Of a DNA stretch of 64,000 nt, positions 26,535 through 36,783 are shown piece after piece (the first letter of the stretch is position 1; each line of letters begins with the position of its first letter). The notes below the pieces were generated by a model that searched no databases, was not told where the DNA came from, and saw nothing but the letters and a program-made list of their open reading frames with translations. Source of the stretch: Gemmatimonadota bacterium (GTDB taxonomy: Bacteria; Gemmatimonadota; Gemmatimonadetes; Gemmatimonadales; Gemmatimonadaceae). Both the position numbers and the translations under genes were made by a program. Location: the NCBI GenBank assembly GCA_026387935.1, contig JAPLKU010000013.1, positions 62,001 through 126,000 of the forward strand, given 5' to 3'.

Positions 26535-28021
<1,487 letters not shown>

Positions 28022-28079
28022 GAAGCGCCGAATATGCGCGTGCGCAGCGCGCAGCGACACCGCGCGGCTAATTTCCGGC

Positions 28080-28841
28080 GTGCCTTCCCGTCTCGATCGC
28101 GTCGTCATCGTCCTGCACAAGCCGCAGGACCCCATCAACATCGGCGCCACCGTGCGCGCGATGAAAAACATGGGACTCTCGCATCTCCGGCTCGTGCAGC
28201 CTTGCCTCTACGACCCATGGCGTGTCGAAGGCGTGGCGCATGGCACGCGCGATCTCGTGTCCGCCATCACCCATTTCGATTCACTCGAAGCGTCCGTCGC
28301 CGACTGCGTAAAGGTTGCCGCCTTCGCCGGCAAGCGCCGCGCCGCCAAGTGGCCGACCATGACGCCGCGCGAGCTCGCGCCGGTGCTCCTCAACGCGTCG
28401 GTCGACGGACCGGTGGCGATTCTCTTCGGCCAGGAAGACCACGGGCTCTCAGCCGAGTCACTCGACGCAGCCCAAATCGTCGTCCACATCCCAACCACCG
28501 AGCACGCGTCGCTCAATCTTGCGCAGGCCGTGCTGGTGGCGCTCTACGAGTTGCACATCGCGGCCGGCGATGCCACCCGCACCCTCGCGCCGCCGAAGAA
28601 AGCCGACGTCCCGGCGACGCACGAAGAGTGGGAACGATTCTTCGTGACCGCGGCTGAAACGCTGCACGCGCTCGACTTTTTCAACACGCGCAGTGAAGAG
28701 ATGGTGCTGCGCAGCGTCCGTTCGCTCGCCGCGCGCGCCGATCCCGACGTGCGCGAGCTCAAACTCCTTCACTCGATGTGCTACGAAGTCCTCCGTACTA
28801 TCGAACGCGTAAAAAGGGGCGCGGAGCAGGGGAAACTCTGA
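28080..28841 (+). CDS. trmJ: SpoU/TrmJ-type RNA 2'-O-methyltransferase
   Basis: A 253-residue SPOUT methyltransferase. N-terminal VVIVLHKPQDPINIGATVRAMKNMGLSHL is the TrmJ/LasT opening; the trefoil-knot SAM motifs are GPVAILFGQEDHGLS (about 128-142) and IPTTEHASLNLAQAVLVALYEL (about 152-173). A C-terminal helical extension (about 95 residues) is typical of TrmJ, which methylates position 32 of tRNAs. I prefer GTG 28080, which puts seven residues before the core strand as in relatives; ATG 28020 in frame is possible, but it would overlap the start of the divergent acyl-CoA synthetase gene. Confidence 0.85.
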   Translation: MPSRLDRVVIVLHKPQDPINIGATVRAMKNMGLSHLRLVQPCLYDPWRVEGVAHGTRDLVSAITHFDSLEASVADCVKVAAFAGKRRAAKWPTMTPRELAPVLLNASVDGPVAILFGQEDHGLSAESLDAAQIVVHIPTTEHASLNLAQAVLVALYELHIAAGDATRTLAPPKKADVPATHEEWERFFVTAAETLHALDFFNTRSEEMVLRSVRSLAARADPDVRELKLLHSMCYEVLRTIERVKRGAEQGKL

Positions 28842-28925
28842 CCCTCCGCTTCCCGACAAAATCGCTCGTCTTTCTGCGGCTTGCGGAGCACGTAACTGCA
28901 TATCATCTTTGGTTCTGCAGTGCCT

Positions 28926-28941
28926 TGTGAACAATTTCACA
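28926..28941 (+). promoter_or_regulatory. CRP/FNR-family binding-site-like palindrome upstream of act operon
   Basis: TGTGAACAATTTCACA fits TGTGA-N6-TCACA exactly, the consensus of CRP-type regulators; arms TGTGAA and TTCACA are perfect inverted repeats. Its end lies 45 bases before the actA start codon. It is the best candidate for an operator of the act operon. The bound regulator is unknown and none is encoded in the window. Confidence 0.6.
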
Positions 28942-28986
28942 TGAGCTTCCGGTGATCCGAATTTCCCCGCCAAACGGACACGCGTG

Positions 28987-29751
28987 ATGACTCGCCCTCC
29001 TCGGTTGTTTCGTTGGGTTGTCATTCCCGCTGTCGCCGCAGTTGCCCTCGCGGCATCGATTCTTACCGCTTCCGCACGTGCGCCTCTTGCCGTCCAGGGG
29101 GCTCAAGCCGCTGTGGCACCAGCCGCTGTGGCACCAGCCACCGGAGCGCCAGAAACCGCTACGCAAAAAGCGAATCGCGAAGCCGCCGGTAAGGCGCCTC
29201 GCGGACCGTGGGCGTACTCAGGTGCATCGGGCTACACCAACTACCTCGGCGGTGGAGTCGGACGCTCGCCCGAACAGCCGATCAAGTTCCCGCATCCGGT
29301 GCACGTCAACACGCTCAAGCTCAACTGCGTGTACTGCCACTTCTCGGCATTCAAGTCGCCGGACCCGGGCATGCCGGCAGTCGGCACCTGCTTGGGTTGC
29401 CACCAACTCGTTGCCGGCGATCGCCCCGAGATCAAAAAGATCGCGGAGTACGCCGCCAAGAAAGCGCCAATTCCGTGGGTCCGCGTGCACAAGGTGCCGG
29501 AGTACGTGCATTTCCCGCACATGCGACACGTCAATGCCGGCGTCACCTGCCAGAGCTGCCACGGCCAGATCAACAACATGCCGCAGGTGTTCCAGTATGC
29601 CTCGCTCAACATGGGCTGGTGTGTCAGCTGCCATGTGAACGGCTATTCGCCCGCCGACGGCATTCGCGCCGCCGGCTATGTGCCGGATTCGACGGCGCTT
29701 GCCGCCCCGCGCAAGAAGGCGACGTATGACTGCTCCAACTGCCACTACTAG
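28987..29751 (+). CDS. actA: Alternative complex III subunit ActA, pentahaem cytochrome c
   Basis: A 254-residue exported cytochrome with an N-terminal hydrophobic anchor/signal (about 9-30) and five CxxCH haem motifs: C114VYCH118, C135LGCH139, C188QSCH192, C212VSCH216 and C249SNCH253. Five haems and place at the head of the operon identify ActA of alternative complex III, which replaces the bc1 complex as quinol:cytochrome c/HiPIP oxidoreductase. The ATG is at 28987 (a GTG one codon upstream could serve). Residues 41-52 contain AVAPAAVAPA, coded by a perfect 15-bp tandem duplication (29107-29136). actB follows after 3 bases. Confidence 0.95.
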   Translation: MTRPPRLFRWVVIPAVAAVALAASILTASARAPLAVQGAQAAVAPAAVAPATGAPETATQKANREAAGKAPRGPWAYSGASGYTNYLGGGVGRSPEQPIKFPHPVHVNTLKLNCVYCHFSAFKSPDPGMPAVGTCLGCHQLVAGDRPEIKKIAEYAAKKAPIPWVRVHKVPEYVHFPHMRHVNAGVTCQSCHGQINNMPQVFQYASLNMGWCVSCHVNGYSPADGIRAAGYVPDSTALAAPRKKATYDCSNCHY

Positions 29752-29754
29752 ACC

Positions 29755-32700
29755 ATGAGCACTGAGACGAAGGACCTCGCCGCCGTGGATCTGATGAAGG
29801 AGCCCGTCAAGCGACGCGACTTCCTCAAGGTTGCCGCCGTAGGTGGCGCCGCGACCGCGACCGTTGGCTGCTTCAGCGACCAGGTTGAAAAGCTCATTCC
29901 GTACGTCACGTCGCCGGACAACACGGTGCCGGGCGTCTCGTCGTACTATGCCTCCACCTGCCGTGAGTGCGCGGTCGGTTGCGGCATCGTCGTCGAAACG
30001 CGCGACGGTCGCGCCATCAAGATCGAAGGCAACCCCGATCACCCGGTGAATCGCGGCGCGCTTTGCGGCCGTGGTCAGTCCGCGCTGCAGGGGCTGTACA
30101 ATCCGGATCGCTTTCAGGGTCCGATGAAGCGTCAGGGCACCGCGCTCGTTCCCGCCACATGGGAAGAAGCGATCACGATGCTCTCCGGCAAGCTCGCCGA
30201 CGCCAAGAAGGGCGGTGGTGCAGCGAACGCCGTGTTTATCAATCAGCACGAACAGGGATCCTTCCCGGCCTTCCTCGACGGATGGCTCGGCGGCTTCGGC
30301 ATGCCGGCGCATCTGTCGTATGACGCGGAAGCACCGCTCTCTGCCATTGCGGCCAATCGCCAGGTGTTCAGCGCGGCGTGGCCGAAGCACGACTTCAAGG
30401 CGGCGAAGCTGATCGTTTCGTTCGGCGCCGACTATCTCGACGCCTGGGGCCTCACGGTTCCGCAGCAGCTCGAGTTCGCGGATGCGCGCGGCAAGATCGA
30501 CGGCGCTCCGCGCGTCATCTACATCGGACCGCGTCGCACGCTCACCGGCCTCAACGCCGATACGTGGATTCCGGCTCGTCCGGGCACGTTGTCCGCTGTG
30601 GCAGAAGCGGTTGGTGCGTCGGTCACCGGAAAGGGTGGCTCACTCAAGGCAGTCGCCGAACAGGCCGGCGTCTCGGTGGAGTCACTCGAATCACTCGTCG
30701 CAGAACTCAAGGCCGCAAAGCCGAGTCTGTTGCTTGCGGGCGGCACTGGCCCGAATGCCACGGCGCTTGGCGTCGCAATCAACGAGCTGAACAAGGCGCT
30801 CGGCAACGTTGGCCAGACCATCAAGCCCGGCGAAGGCTCCCAGGCGTTTGATGGGCTCGCGTCGCACGCCGCGGTGCGTGACGCCGCCGATCGCATGGCG
30901 GCTGGAAAGGTGTCCATCGCGTTTGTGCGCGGCGCCGATCCAGTCCACTCGACGCCCGCCGGCGTGAAGTTCGCCGAGGCGTTTGCGAAGGTGCCGTTCA
31001 AAGTCTCGTTCTCGAGCTATCCCGACGCGACCACGCAACTCTGCGATCTCGTGCTGCCGGACAATCACTCGCTCGAAAGCTGGGGCGATGCGGAACCGGT
31101 GAAGGGCACGCTTTCGCTGCAGCAGCCGACGATGGATCCGGTGTTCAACACGCGCGCTACGGCGGACGTGCTGATCGCGATCGCGAAGGCCGACGCAGCG
31201 ATGGCCGGCAAGTATCCGACGGACTACCGCGCGTACATCGCGGCTCGCGTAGGCGGCAACACCGCGCTCGCCGCTGCGCTCCCAACGGCGGTCGCCAAGG
31301 GATCGTCAGCCAGTGCGCCGGCGCCGAAGGCCGTGTCCGCCAAGCCCGGCGGCACGAGCACTGGTGACTACTTCCTTCAGGTCTACACCTCACCGGTGGT
31401 CGGCGATGGCCGCGGCGCGAACAAGCCGTGGCTGCAGGAACTGCCAGACCCCGTCACGAAGATTGCGTGGCAGACGGTGATTGAAATCCATCCGGACACG
31501 GCGCGCAAGCTTAGCGTCGAGTCGGGAGAGCACGTCACCGTCACGACGAGCACCGGTTCGATCACGGCGCCGGCGTATCTGTACATCGGCATTCGCCCCG
31601 ACACGATCGCGGTGGCGACGGGTCGCGGTCACACGGCATACGGACGCTATGCCAACGGCTGCGGTTTGAATGCCATGTCGTTGCTCGGCGCGGCTGAAGA
31701 CATGCGCTCGGGCCAGTTCGTCATGACGGGCACGAAGGCGTCGCTCGTCAAGGCGGCTGGCAAGTCGCGCATGGTCACGACCGAAGGTTCGGCGCGCCAG
31801 CATGATCGCGGAATCGCGCAGGCGGTCACGCTTGATCAGCTGAAGGCCGGCGAGGGTGGGGAAGAGCTGCACTACTTCCCCGGGCAGGCCGACAAGGTTG
31901 GATTCCTCCCGGGGCTTCGCGCACCGGTTGCCAACGATGCACAGGGCGACCTCGGCGATCCGAACTCCGGCAAAAAGGGCCAGTACAATCCCGAGCACTG
32001 GAGCGGCGTCGCCAAGCGCCGCTGGGCGATGGTGGTTGACCTCGCCCGTTGCACCGGCTGCTCGGCCTGCGTCACGGCCTGCTACTCTGAAAACAACATT
32101 CCGACCGTTGGCGCCCCTTGGCAGGGACCACAGTTCTGGCCCGACCGCACCGGCTTCGGTGCCAACGTTACGCGTAACCGCGAAATGGCCTGGATCCGAC
32201 TCGAGCGCTACTTCGAGATCGATCGCGAGCCGAAGGATGTCGAGTTCAATCCGGACTTCGACACGCGCGTGATTCCCATGATGTGCCAGCACTGCGGCAA
32301 TGCGCCGTGCGAGCCCGTTTGCCCGGTGTACGCGACGTACCACTCACCGGACGGCCTGAACGTTCAGGTCTATAACCGCTGCGTGGGCACGCGCTATTGC
32401 TCCAATGGCTGCCCCTACAAGGTCCGCTATTTCAACTGGTTCGGCTTCGGTGAGCCCAACCGGACGCAGTACGCGTTCCCTGAGCCGCTCAACTGGCAGC
32501 TCAACCCGGACGTCACCGTCCGCGGAAAGGGCGTCATGGAGAAGTGCACCTTCTGCGTGCAGCGCATTCGTGAAGCCGAGAATCGCGCCACGCTCGAGCA
32601 TCGCGAGCTGGAGCCCGATGAATTCACGGTAGCCTGCGCACAGGCCTGCCCGTCGCGCGCGATCGTCTTTGGCGACGCGGCCGATGAGAAGTGGGCGGTT

Positions 32701-32829
32701 GCCAAGCTCATTGACGACACGCGCGCCTATCACGTGTTCGAAGAACTCAACACCTATACCGCGGTGGTCTACTTGCGGAAGGTCAACCATCCGGCGCCCG
32801 GTGGAAACACCGCGACGGCCAAGGCATAG
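29755..32829 (+). CDS. actB: Alternative complex III subunit ActB (molybdopterin-like/Fe-S fusion)
   Basis: A 1024-residue periplasmic subunit. A Tat signal (VKRRDFLKVAAVGG, residues 18-31) precedes a domain of the molybdopterin-oxidoreductase fold (about 65-740) with an Fe-S motif C69-C72-C76...C104. In ActB of known complexes this domain has lost the Mo cofactor. From about 760 a ferredoxin-like domain with four cysteine clusters follows, beginning at C766 (CTGCSACVTAC), C844 (CQHCGNAPCEPVC), C876 and C931/C961. The two parts correspond to B1 and B2 of ActB, fused as usual. It relays electrons from quinol toward ActA/ActE. actC follows after 11 bases. Confidence 0.95.
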   Translation: MSTETKDLAAVDLMKEPVKRRDFLKVAAVGGAATATVGCFSDQVEKLIPYVTSPDNTVPGVSSYYASTCRECAVGCGIVVETRDGRAIKIEGNPDHPVNRGALCGRGQSALQGLYNPDRFQGPMKRQGTALVPATWEEAITMLSGKLADAKKGGGAANAVFINQHEQGSFPAFLDGWLGGFGMPAHLSYDAEAPLSAIAANRQVFSAAWPKHDFKAAKLIVSFGADYLDAWGLTVPQQLEFADARGKIDGAPRVIYIGPRRTLTGLNADTWIPARPGTLSAVAEAVGASVTGKGGSLKAVAEQAGVSVESLESLVAELKAAKPSLLLAGGTGPNATALGVAINELNKALGNVGQTIKPGEGSQAFDGLASHAAVRDAADRMAAGKVSIAFVRGADPVHSTPAGVKFAEAFAKVPFKVSFSSYPDATTQLCDLVLPDNHSLESWGDAEPVKGTLSLQQPTMDPVFNTRATADVLIAIAKADAAMAGKYPTDYRAYIAARVGGNTALAAALPTAVAKGSSASAPAPKAVSAKPGGTSTGDYFLQVYTSPVVGDGRGANKPWLQELPDPVTKIAWQTVIEIHPDTARKLSVESGEHVTVTTSTGSITAPAYLYIGIRPDTIAVATGRGHTAYGRYANGCGLNAMSLLGAAEDMRSGQFVMTGTKASLVKAAGKSRMVTTEGSARQHDRGIAQAVTLDQLKAGEGGEELHYFPGQADKVGFLPGLRAPVANDAQGDLGDPNSGKKGQYNPEHWSGVAKRRWAMVVDLARCTGCSACVTACYSENNIPTVGAPWQGPQFWPDRTGFGANVTRNREMAWIRLERYFEIDREPKDVEFNPDFDTRVIPMMCQHCGNAPCEPVCPVYATYHSPDGLNVQVYNRCVGTRYCSNGCPYKVRYFNWFGFGEPNRTQYAFPEPLNWQLNPDVTVRGKGVMEKCTFCVQRIREAENRATLEHRELEPDEFTVACAQACPSRAIVFGDAADEKWAVAKLIDDTRAYHVFEELNTYTAVVYLRKVNHPAPGGNTATAKA

Positions 32830-32840
32830 GGGGCGCGAAC

Positions 32841-34250
32841 ATGGCTACGCTCTCTCAGCCCGATTTCAACACCGACGGACCGAAGCGCCCCAACATCGCG
32901 AAGGCAGGCTTGCAGCTGCCCGCGGTGAAGGACTACGCCCAGGTGGATCGCGAAATCATCGGCACGCTCAAGCCGACGAAGGCGTGGTTCATCCTGCTGA
33001 TGACGGCGATGAGCTGTCTCGCCATCGGCGCACTCAGCTGGACCTACCAGATTCACGAAGGCCTCGGCGTCGCCGGCTATTCGCCGCCGGTGATGTGGGG
33101 CGTGTACATCATCACGTTCGTGTTCTGGATCGGTATCGGTCACGCCGGGACGCTCATCTCGGCGATTCTCTATCTCTTCCGCGCCGGCTTCCGCACCACG
33201 ATTTACCGCTGCGCCGAAGCGATGACGGTGTTTGCTGTCATGACCGCTGGTCTCTTTCCGATCATCCACATTGGGCGGCCCTGGAAGTTCTTCTGGCTGA
33301 TTCCGTATCCGAACTGGCGACTGCTGTGGCCGAACTTCAAGTCGCCGCTCGTCTGGGACGTTTTCGCTATTTCGACGTACTTGACCATTTCGGTCACCTT
33401 CCTCTTCATCGGACTCCTCCCCGACATCGCGACGCTGCGTGATGTCGAGAAGAACCCGATCAAGAAGCAGATGCTGTCGCTGCTCTCGTTCGGGTGGCGG
33501 AACAGCGAGAACGAATGGCGCCACTTTGCTCGCGCCTACCTGTTCTTGGCGGCCTTCTCCACGCCGCTCGTGCTCTCGGTGCACTCCGTCGTTTCCTTCG
33601 ACTTCTCGATGGCATTGGTGCCGGGCTGGCACACCACGATTTTTGCGCCGTATTTCGTCGCCGGCGCGATTTTCTCCGGCATGGGCATGGTCTACACGAT
33701 CATCATCCCCATTCGGAAATGGTTCAAGCTCGAGCACTACGTCACGTTGAATGTGATGGACGCTGGCGCCAAGCTCACGCTCTTCACGTCGATGGTTGTT
33801 GGATGCGCCTACCTCGTTGAGTTCTTCATCGCCTGGTACGGCGGCGTGAAGGTGGAGCAGGAGTACTTCTACAACCGTGTGTTCGGTCAGTGGTGGTACG
33901 CCGCCTGGATCATGCTCACCTGCAACATGATCCTCCCGCTCTCGCTCTTCTCGCAGAAGCTTCGCCGCAACCCGGCCTGGCTCTTCATTCTGTCGATCTT
34001 CATCAACATCGGCATGTGGTTCGAGCGCTTCGTCATCATCGTGCCCGGCCTCTCGCACGAGTTCGAGCCCTGGCAGTGGGCGGGCTACCGGCCCACCTGG
34101 GTGGACTTCGGTATCCTGCTCGGATCATTCGGTTGGTTCTTCATGTGGTTCCTGCTCTTCGTGCGGCAGTTGCCGGTGTTGGCGATTTCCGAAATCAAGG
34201 AAATCGTGCCGCCGCGAATGAAGAACCCTGCCGCGCAAGGAGGGCACTAA
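32841..34250 (+). CDS. actC: Alternative complex III subunit ActC (NrfD-type quinol site)
   Basis: A 469-residue integral membrane protein with about ten helices (about 50-445), of the NrfD/PsrC family. Its soluble N-terminus (1-45) contains the conserved DYAQVDREIIGTLKPTKAWF. Typical segments include YEGLGV-like IHEGLGVAGYSPPVMWGVYIITFVFWIGIGHAGT and FNRVFG in VEQEYFYNRVFGQWW. ActC is the quinol-binding membrane subunit of the complex. Tight spacing to actD (1 base between stop and start) shows operon structure. Confidence 0.95.
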   Translation: MATLSQPDFNTDGPKRPNIAKAGLQLPAVKDYAQVDREIIGTLKPTKAWFILLMTAMSCLAIGALSWTYQIHEGLGVAGYSPPVMWGVYIITFVFWIGIGHAGTLISAILYLFRAGFRTTIYRCAEAMTVFAVMTAGLFPIIHIGRPWKFFWLIPYPNWRLLWPNFKSPLVWDVFAISTYLTISVTFLFIGLLPDIATLRDVEKNPIKKQMLSLLSFGWRNSENEWRHFARAYLFLAAFSTPLVLSVHSVVSFDFSMALVPGWHTTIFAPYFVAGAIFSGMGMVYTIIIPIRKWFKLEHYVTLNVMDAGAKLTLFTSMVVGCAYLVEFFIAWYGGVKVEQEYFYNRVFGQWWYAAWIMLTCNMILPLSLFSQKLRRNPAWLFILSIFINIGMWFERFVIIVPGLSHEFEPWQWAGYRPTWVDFGILLGSFGWFFMWFLLFVRQLPVLAISEIKEIVPPRMKNPAAQGGH

Positions 34251-34251
34251 C

Positions 34252-34755
34252 ATGGCACAGGGTATGCTTGGGGCCTTCCTCGAGCTTGACTCGGCCTGTG
34301 AAGCCATTGCCGCGCTGCGCAAGCAGAACGTCGGCAAGATCACCGTCTTCACACCGACGCCGCGGCACGAGTTTGAACATGCGCTGCAGCCGCCGCGCAG
34401 TCCCGTTCGTATGTATACGCTGATCGGCGCGCTTTCGGGGGCGACGTTCGGCTACTGGGTGTCCATCTGGGGTTCGAACTACTGGCCGCTCATTGTCGGC
34501 GGCAAGGCGATCTCCACCTTGATTCCCTACACGATCTTTGCCTTCGAACTCATGGTGCTCGTCGGCGGTCTCTCGACCGTCGCGGGGCTCTTCATTCATG
34601 CGCAGGTGCCGCGCCTCACGATGACCGTCGGGTACGACCCGCGGTTCTCGGGGTCGCACTACGGCGTCTGGGTGGAATGCGCGCCGGAGCGCTTGAAAGA
34701 AGCGGAAACCATCTTGCGCCAGGCCGGCGCGGAGGATGTGCGCGGTGAGCAATAA
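34252..34755 (+). CDS. actD: Alternative complex III subunit ActD (DUF3341)
   Basis: A 167-residue protein of the ActD/DUF3341 family: a cytoplasmic/periplasmic start (MLGAFLELDSACEAIAALRKQ), two membrane helices (about 56-78 and 91-113) and a C-terminal soluble domain ending in an amphipathic helix (AERLKEAETILRQAGAEDV). It stabilises the complex next to ActC. It ends inside the start of actE, with an 11-base overlap if ActE begins at GTG 34745. Confidence 0.9.
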   Translation: MAQGMLGAFLELDSACEAIAALRKQNVGKITVFTPTPRHEFEHALQPPRSPVRMYTLIGALSGATFGYWVSIWGSNYWPLIVGGKAISTLIPYTIFAFELMVLVGGLSTVAGLFIHAQVPRLTMTVGYDPRFSGSHYGVWVECAPERLKEAETILRQAGAEDVRGEQ

Positions 34756-35455
34756 CATCATGTCGCGCCGCATCTGGGTCGCGTTGGCCGTCGTGCCATT
34801 TGTCGGCGCCTGCGACTGGATGACCGACTTCAAGCAGCAGCCATCGGTCGGACCTTGGCAGAACTTCAGCACCGATTCAGCCGCGGGGCGCGGATTCCGC
34901 GGCCAGCCGGCGAACAGTGTAAACACGCACGGCGCGCAGGTCGCAGGATTTACGATCAGCTACGCCGGCCTTCCGGGAACGATTGATTCGTTTACCGTCG
35001 TCAAGAATCCAACGACGGCCGATGCGAAGTCGATTGCCAACGGGCACACCTACTACGCCATCAACTGCGCCGTTTGCCATGGTGATGTCGGCGATGGCAA
35101 CGGCACACTGAAGCAGCTCAATCCGATGTACGGGTTTGCGCCGTCCCTCATGACCGATCAGGCCAAGAATCGCAGCGACGGATACCTCTTCGGCATGATC
35201 CGCAACGGGCGCGGCCTCATGCCGCCGTACAACCGTATCGAAGAAATGGATCGTTGGGACGTGGTCAACTACCTCCGTGGCCTGCAGGGCAAGCTCTCGG
35301 CGCCGGTTGCCACCGGTCCGGTGGGTCTCCCGGGCGAGACGGGCGACAAACTGCCTGGTGCTACCGCGGTCGGCCCAACAGTCCCGGCCAAGTACACGAA
35401 GTCCACCATCATGCCGACTCCCATCGGCGAGAAGAAGAAGGAGGGCCATCCATGA
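34745..35455 (+). CDS. actE: Alternative complex III subunit ActE, monohaem cytochrome c lipoprotein
   Basis: A 236-residue protein with a short signal and lipobox (FVGAC, Cys23) and one CxxCH haem motif (INCAVCHGDVGDGNG) with a distal Met in GRGLMPPY. Monohaem class-I cytochrome c fold, about 90-185, then a Pro/Gly-rich tail. It corresponds to ActE, the lipid-anchored electron exit subunit. Start choice: GGAGG at 34731-34735 lies 9 bases before GTG 34745, ideal spacing, whereas the ATG at 34736 directly abuts it. Confidence 0.9.
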   Translation: MSNNIMSRRIWVALAVVPFVGACDWMTDFKQQPSVGPWQNFSTDSAAGRGFRGQPANSVNTHGAQVAGFTISYAGLPGTIDSFTVVKNPTTADAKSIANGHTYYAINCAVCHGDVGDGNGTLKQLNPMYGFAPSLMTDQAKNRSDGYLFGMIRNGRGLMPPYNRIEEMDRWDVVNYLRGLQGKLSAPVATGPVGLPGETGDKLPGATAVGPTVPAKYTKSTIMPTPIGEKKKEGHP

Positions 35456-36783
35456 GCGAGCACGGAAGTTTGGCCGCGCCAACTCGTGAACGCGTTATCG
35501 CCGCCGGCGCACCGTCGGTGACGGGCCGCATTCGTCAGGTGTCCATGGTGCTGGCGATCGTCGGCATGCTGACCTTCGCGTACGGTGCCTTCACCGGCAA
35601 CGATCGCGCCTGGCATGCGTTCCACGTCAACTGGCTCTTTTTCTCGGTCATCTCCTCGGCCGCGGTCATGTTCGTTGCGGTGCAGCGCATCACCACCGCG
35701 CGCTGGTCGCGCGGCATCATCCGCTTCCTTGAGGGATACGCCGCCTTCCTGCCCTTCGCCTGGATCGCGCTCGTGCTCATGGTGCTCGCGGGCCGAGCGC
35801 ATGTCTATCCGTGGTGGACCACGCTTGCCGAGCTGCAGCATGAAAAGCAGATCTACCTCGGGCATCAGTTCTTCGCGCTGCGCAGTGTGGGTGTGTTCAC
35901 CGCATTGACGGCGCTGCAGCTCTGGTACACCTGGACGTCGGTGCGGCTCGATGTCGGCATCTCGCCTGAGGGCGGCGCGTCGTGGGCGGCTGGCCTGCGT
36001 GCGAAGATGCGCGCCAACTTCGGCGAAGAGCGTCGTGAGCTGCACAGCACGCATTCGCTCCAGGGCAAGCTCGCCGTCATCATGGCGCTCGTGTTTGGCT
36101 TCGGCTGGTGTGTCCTGGCGTGGGACCAGTCGATGACGCTCGACCCGCACTTCTTCAGCACGATGTACGGCTGGCAGGTGTTCATGGGCGGCTGGCTCAT
36201 CGCCCTGATGAGCCTTTCCGGCATGGTGCGTTTCTGGCGCATGCGGCTCGGTGCCGAAGATCTCGTCACCGAGGCGCACTATCACGACATCGGCAAGCTC
36301 TGCTTCGGGTTCACCGCGTTCTGGGGCTACATCACCTTCGCCCAGTTCCTGGTTATCTGGTACGGCAACATGCCGGAAGAAACCCACTTCTTCACGCAGC
36401 GCCTGACCCATGCGTGGACGAACTGGACCGTCGCGATTGCCGTCCTGACGTTCGTGCTTCCGTTCTTCGGCTTGCTCTCGGTGAAGGCCAAGACCTTCTC
36501 GCCGACGATGCTCTTCTTTGCGGCCTGCAGCGCACTCGGCATCTGGATTCAGCGCTACATCGAGGTGTACCCCTCGGTCTATGGTGCCGTGAGCAATGCG
36601 CCGTTCAGCTACTGGGAAGTATTGATTACGCTCGGCTACCTCGGCGTCTGGGGCTGGAGCTATACGTCGTTCATGGACGCCTTCCCGAAGTTCCGCGTGT
36701 TCCTGCTCACTTCGCCCTACCGCGATGAAGTGCAGGTGCCGGTCGACGCGGAGACGATGGAGCCGCTTCCGGCGCACGAATAG
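35452..36783 (+). CDS. actF: Alternative complex III subunit ActF (NrfD-like)
   Basis: A 443-residue membrane protein with about ten helices and the typical ActF sequence TGNDRAWHAFHVNWLFF, GHQFFALR, FSTMYGWQVFMGGW and LAWDQSMTLDPHFF; the segment LVIWYGNMPEE is strongly conserved. ActF resembles ActC but lacks the quinol-site residues, as in characterised complexes. The ATG overlaps the actE stop by 4 bases (ATGA). Last gene of the operon; a 13-bp UUCG terminator begins 19 bases downstream. No cytochrome oxidase genes follow in the window. Confidence 0.9.
   Translation: MSEHGSLAAPTRERVIAAGAPSVTGRIRQVSMVLAIVGMLTFAYGAFTGNDRAWHAFHVNWLFFSVISSAAVMFVAVQRITTARWSRGIIRFLEGYAAFLPFAWIALVLMVLAGRAHVYPWWTTLAELQHEKQIYLGHQFFALRSVGVFTALTALQLWYTWTSVRLDVGISPEGGASWAAGLRAKMRANFGEERRELHSTHSLQGKLAVIMALVFGFGWCVLAWDQSMTLDPHFFSTMYGWQVFMGGWLIALMSLSGMVRFWRMRLGAEDLVTEAHYHDIGKLCFGFTAFWGYITFAQFLVIWYGNMPEETHFFTQRLTHAWTNWTVAIAVLTFVLPFFGLLSVKAKTFSPTMLFFAACSALGIWIQRYIEVYPSVYGAVSNAPFSYWEVLITLGYLGVWGWSYTSFMDAFPKFRVFLLTSPYRDEVQVPVDAETMEPLPAHE

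Follow-up and report, generated by a model that had tools for sequence, protein, structure and literature searches.

Rex is a winged-helix/Rossmann sensor of NADH that stands outside the CRP/FNR superfamily, and the operators of the latter read TGTGA-N6-TCACA. The general consensus of Rex operators is TTGTGAA-N4-TTCACAA (Ravcheev et al. 2012, as quoted in the Rex passages of PMC5317091), and the same palindrome is given for Streptomyces avermitilis (PMC5355995) and, as TTGTGAAW4TTCACAA, for Staphylococcus aureus (PMC2883068). According to the passages of PMC5355995 on the Rex targets, operators of S. avermitilis lie at or near the promoters of atpIBEFHAGDC, cydABCD, nuo and rex-hem, and the proven targets include rex and the atp operons. 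In S. aureus, Rex binds more strongly with NAD+ and more weakly with NADH, and the passages of PMC2883068 on the regulon place its targets in the formation of lactate, formate and ethanol and in nitrate respiration, while its own promoter is not bound. Furthermore, Caldithrix abyssi has Rex and an alternative complex III (ACIII, actABCEED) in one genome, with a Rex site before rex; in the part of PMC5317091 dealing with this site, it is assigned to a rex-hydrogenase operon and none is assigned to ACIII.

For Gemmatimonadota, a phylum of which few members have been cultured (PMC9426454 counts six), no report of Rex was found in the open-licence literature under this name or as Gemmatimonadetes, and the word Rex is absent from PMC9426454, which treats energy conservation in the phylum. 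Likewise, no report of an ACIII as a Rex target was found in the open-licence literature, an earlier prediction being possible in Ravcheev et al. 2012. The earlier note on this DNA had called the regulation of act operons poorly described, and so it seems, as no account of it was found in the same literature.

The window analysed here is a stretch of 64,000 nucleotides of a Gemmatimonadota MAG (2.8 Mb, 28 contigs, 95% complete). As in Streptomyces, predicted sites follow the consensus TTGTGAA-N4-TTCACAA, lie at or near promoters and precede rex, which points to autoregulation, as well as the ATP synthase genes. Unlike in the atpIBEFHAGDC operon of S. avermitilis, the F0 and F1 genes are found at separate places, each with a site of its own; moreover, neither ACIII nor a cupredoxin is named as a target in the passages of PMC5355995 on the regulon, and none of the sites that were assigned here to a gene precedes cyd or nuo. 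The palindrome is also that of S. aureus, from which this genome differs in its predicted targets and in having a site before rex. As a kind of element, Rex operators are already known, and the one predicted here lies at a target for which no description was found. It is on balance probable that, in Gemmatimonadaceae-like bacteria, the whole terminal part of the respiratory chain is set by Rex as one block, made up of ACIII, its blue-copper acceptor, the ATP synthase (both F0 and F1) and Rex itself, joined in this genus by clpX. This control would be fixed at actA within the family; in a sister family it would sit at the cupredoxin gene, and from one related group that has retained Rex it would be missing at actA. 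If true, no regulator would have been assigned to an alternative complex III before Rex.

The palindrome before actA and its putative promoter

The palindrome TGTGAACAATTTCACA occupies positions 28926-28941. It lies within the 145 bp that separate a SpoU/TrmJ-type methylase gene, whose stop is at 28841, from actA. The earlier note had reported its perfect TGTGA-N6-TCACA arms and its end 45 bases upstream of actA, and both hold for the ATG at 28987, a start that the congeners share; an alternative GTG start at 28984 is possible. No other perfect copy of TGTGA-N6-TCACA was found in the 64-kb window. Read one base wider on each side (28925-28942), the element matches 13 of the 14 letters of the Rex operator TTGTGAA-N4-TTCACAA. 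When 28 actA sites from the genus and the family were aligned, the A before the spacer was kept in 27 and the T after it in all 28, while the outer T and the outer A were found in 26 and 22, respectively. By contrast with these letters, three of the four spacer bases vary within the genus and all four within the family, the fourth being T in 16 of 16 genus genomes. The palindrome is very probably the operator of Rex, the NAD(H)-sensing repressor.

Upstream of the site, a promoter-like pair was found (Table 1). The pattern TTG-N15-21-[CT]ATnTT appeared in 12 of 16 genus genomes (0.24 expected from shuffles), ending 15-19 bases before the operator, and a similar pair was seen in the family, in 4 genomes out of 12 (0.1 expected); this pattern was defined post hoc from the alignment, and its enrichment over shuffles is descriptive. 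Downstream, the act genes follow one another on the same strand. The last of them, actF, had no match in the Pfam or NCBIfam searches, and it probably begins further downstream than the first TTG, at about 35450.

Table 1. Coordinates of the features around the predicted operator (positions in the window unless a locus is named)
Feature	Position	Strand	Basis or remark
SpoU/TrmJ-type RNA methylase, edge of the regulatory gap	28020..28841	+	Pfam SpoU_methylase
Promoter-like pair TTGCGG ... CATCTTTG	28881..28911	+	20 bases between TTG and CATCTTTG; ends 13 bases before the operator
Rex operator (predicted) TTGTGAA-CAAT-TTCACAT	28925..28942	.	Consensus as given in the Rex passages of PMC5317091 and PMC5355995; conservation
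actA, multihaem cytochrome c subunit of alternative complex III	28987..29751	+	Pfam Cytochrome_C7; congeners keep the ATG (start alignment)
actB, molybdopterin/Fe-S subunit	29755..32829	+	Pfam Molybdopterin, Fer4
actC, NrfD-type membrane subunit	32841..34250	+	Pfam NrfD
actD	34252..34755	+	Pfam ActD PF11821
actE, monohaem cytochrome c subunit	34736..35455	+	Pfam Cytochrome_CBB3
Probable actF, membrane protein	35254..36783	+	Translation; name from position and hydrophobic character
BsuPI-type neighbour gene	L016:7223-7816; also L192, L206, L209, L220, L223

Binding of Rex at actA, the direction of its control and the start of transcription there are what we infer. From known Rex biology, a Rex dimer carrying NAD+ would sit on the operator, just downstream of the promoter-like pair, roughly at the start of the transcript and over its first transcribed bases, and would block the initiation or early elongation of actABCDEF transcription. 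With a rise in NADH, caused by oxygen shortage or electron overload, Rex would be released from the operator, leading to more ACIII, more of its likely copper-protein acceptor, more ATP synthase and more Rex itself. Repression of act by NAD+-bound Rex, relieved as NADH rises, is the most likely mode of control. The conserved predicted operator would then offer a testable link from the NADH/NAD+ ratio to the production of ACIII, its probable copper partner and the ATP synthase.

Rarity and conservation of the site

When up to one of the 14 letters was allowed to differ, the genome yielded six sites, compared with about 0.06 expected if the G+C content of the window (63.5%) holds genome-wide, while a reversed-pattern control gave none. 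Three further positions (C1:261537, C8:8731 and C18:156360), each within a called ORF and with one mismatch to the 12-letter pattern and at least one wrong outer letter, were left out of this count. The earlier note had named frequency at random positions in the genome as grounds against its reading; the site is instead rare elsewhere in the genome. In the relative set, such sites were present in 59 of 61 genomes, and the reversed control gave one each in two genomes. Furthermore, 101 ActA-like loci (439 kb, 12 loci repeating genomes already sampled) contained 54 sites at the same mismatch limit, no locus having two or more, while 47 loci had none. Eight control patterns with altered spacers or with scrambled or altered arms were applied to the same loci; seven of them gave no site, and the CRP-like control TTGTGAT-N4-ATCACAA gave two.

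Conservation before actA in relatives, which the earlier note had proposed as a check, was observed throughout the genus (16 of the 16 genomes that were testable, this one among them, each with at most one of the 14 letters changed) and in 16 of the 19 genomes of other genera of the family (none in G019, G025 and G029). Two genomes of the genus were left out, one with too short an upstream sequence (G007) and one without an actA match (G010). In two sister families, the site was found in only 4 of 24 genomes, each time with two mismatches (G043, G046, G055 and G056). The flanks of the site have diverged where the site itself is kept. For genomes with two ActA-like matches, the better one was counted, and part of the second matches were fetched. 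In addition, 37 named ActA loci were considered, 32 of which are titled Gemmatimonadetes, Gemmatimonadota, Gemmatimonadaceae or Gemmatimonas. As 12 of the 37 repeat sampled genomes, 25 others were left, of which 12 had the exact site and 13 had none. The latter include one Calditrichaeota record, two of Verrucomicrobia type and seven that are about 65-67% identical in ActA; another record of this identity range (L131) has the site. In the relative set, 60 of 61 genomes had an ActA-like match, some of these perhaps being other multihaem cytochromes, while PMC9426454 gives ACIII in <10% of its Gemmatimonadota genomes.

Rex was matched in 54 of the 61 relative-set genomes. Among these 54, the rex promoter carried a site with at most one mismatch in 48 and with two mismatches in 3 (G038, G046 and G048), and no site was found in the remaining 3 (G024, G034 and G035). 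The three rex promoters with two mismatches (L243, L244 and L247) belong to one genus and read TCGTGAA-N4-TTCACGA, both arms being changed symmetrically, which perhaps reflects a shifted specificity of Rex. In a second set of 27 rex loci from named-record genomes, partly overlapping the relative set, 24 had the site and three (L149, L174 and L175) did not.

The association between Rex and the act site was examined in 84 different genomes with testable actA upstream DNA (59 of the relative set and 25 named records), several of which may be incomplete MAGs. Of the 72 genomes in which Rex was matched, 44 had the act site when up to two mismatches were allowed, as did 4 of the 12 lacking a Rex match (G017, G027, G080 and G087), where MAG gaps are perhaps the reason. 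Rex was present without the act site in G019, in G025 and in five genomes of the group with 65-67% ActA identity (G077, G079 and G081-G083), and these five keep the site before rex itself. Over the 84 genomes, the act site is thus missing from some of those in which Rex and act co-occur. A clean co-loss of Rex and the act site was considered and set aside: G029 (98% complete) lacks both, yet the association is loose over the 84 genomes. Since some relatives have Rex without an act site, Rex control of act would be a trait of part of the phylum.

Regulators of the genome and rival readings

Rex is encoded in this genome as a single copy of 207 aa, with its HTH at C23:250805-250951; the rex gene of this lineage is found at L013:5328-5951 on the minus strand. 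It was identified by NCBIfam NF003992 above the cut-off (E 7.7e-75), has the PF06971 and CoA_binding domains and is related to the solved Rex chains 3ikt and 1xcb, with the QVRKDLS-FGS-GTRG and GxGxxG motifs retained. No match to the CRP-type HTH (PF13545) was found in this genome, 95% complete, so that a missed gene is possible, nor in the congeners G003 and G005 (97 and 99% complete), both of which have the actA site; the same search was positive in 14 of 14 control genomes. Two cyclic-nucleotide-binding proteins (PF00027) are encoded in this genome, and an HTH is absent from both. One of them is a stand-alone protein of 163 aa (L211:1381-1872, on C18). In the other (L212, C1:62006-62275 and downstream), the domain is fused in frame with a lyase of the aspartase/fumarase type (PF00206, PF10415), a hint that nucleotides may control this enzyme.

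The earlier note had tied act expression to a CRP/FNR-superfamily regulator, that is, a sensor of cAMP, oxygen, NO or redox that would bind TGTGA-N6-TCACA and activate act. The arms TGTGA/TCACA are indeed those of CRP/FNR operators, the pattern is matched exactly and 58 of the 61 relative-set genomes have a PF13545 match; however, the three genomes without a match all have the actA site, neither cyclic-nucleotide-binding protein of this genome has an HTH, the letters adjacent to the spacer (A in 27 and T in 28 of the 28 sites aligned) are those of Rex, as are the outer ones, and the same sites precede rex in 48 of 54 genomes. As a leading explanation, CRP/FNR was ruled out through the PF13545 and PF00027 searches and is highly improbable; because the other 58 relatives have a PF13545 match, this exclusion rests on three genomes and on the letters of the site. 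What stands of the proposal is a conserved operator, plausibly of a redox regulator, whereas the family named is very probably wrong, given the Rex letters, the single Rex and the lack of PF13545. Somewhat closer to the preferred reading is a Rex site kept by descent and no longer important in this species, with another regulator mainly setting act; this is very unlikely, for although some relatives keep Rex without an act site, no more than one of the 14 letters has changed in any of the 16 testable genus genomes.

An inverted repeat in an intergenic gap may also act as RNA, as an attenuator of act or a terminator of trmJ, and the copy of the motif at clpX does lie within an extended hairpin with a TTCG loop. 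At actA, however, the pairing ends with the motif in this genome and no T run follows; moreover, the arms are fixed without covariation, while variation within the genus is seen in the flanks and at three of the four spacer positions, so that a hairpin in place of a DNA operator is extremely improbable. The probability of a chance palindrome without function is practically negligible. Mismatched CRP-like palindromes in the window are as common as in shuffles (13 found with at most two mismatches to TGTGA-N6-TCACA vs. 19.5 expected, i.e. not above chance), but the six Rex-type sites far exceed their expectation and all stand before a recurrent set of genes, and the actA site is conserved across genera with diverged flanks.

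Rex-type sites at other genes

The six sites of the genome precede actA, rex, a plastocyanin-like cupredoxin gene, atpA, atpI-atpB and clpX. The distances amount to 48 bases at rex, where the site is exact, 52 bases at the cupredoxin gene and 73 bases at atpA, the last counted to where the trimmed query begins. Six relatives with good assemblies (G003, G006, G014, G015, G016 and G028) were selected; they have 32 sites in total, 29 of which lie before one of these genes: six each before rex, actA and atpA, four each before atpI-atpB and the cupredoxin gene, and three before clpX. The other three (L213, L215 and L222) had no gene assignment, and the same applies to L197, L199 and L200. The predicted targets act, cupredoxin, atpA and atpI-atpB fit the class of functions expected of Rex (NAD+ regeneration, respiration and ATP synthesis), whereas clpX does not. 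Its site lies between clpP and clpX (L011:5970-6040, on C2 near 36462), in the hairpin with the TTCG loop; in three congeners (L178, L182 and L189), the outer stem differs and the TTGTGAA/TTCACAA core is kept. The clpX site may be an operator, a hairpin or both.

The cupredoxin is a likely electron acceptor of ACIII, a role that a regulator shared with act would fit. In Chloroflexus, the blue copper protein auracyanin has been proposed as the carrier after ACIII, as stated in the relevant passage of PMC3150298. In the sister family f2, within the part of its sites that was examined, a site was found before the cupredoxin homologue in six genomes (G039, G045, G049, G054, G055 and G056), out of the 24 from both sister families; in three of the six it lies about 10 kb from actA. 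Next to the sister-family sites stands an ORF (P0001 and P0002) that was considered as the target and rejected, as the cupredoxin on the other side fits better. Such ORFs encode a protein rich in Cys and about 275 aa long, and they are oriented divergently to the sister-family cupredoxin gene (L195:3967-4797 and L196:2063-2887); a Pfam search with L196 gave no match.

A gene of the BsuPI type (intracellular proteinase inhibitor) stands divergently beside the atpI-atpB operon and its Rex-type site in four genera (Table 1). Finally, a Rex-type site was found in G057 about 80 bases inside a called COX2 ORF (L202:1857-3143), perhaps marking a terminal oxidase as a target in the sister family.
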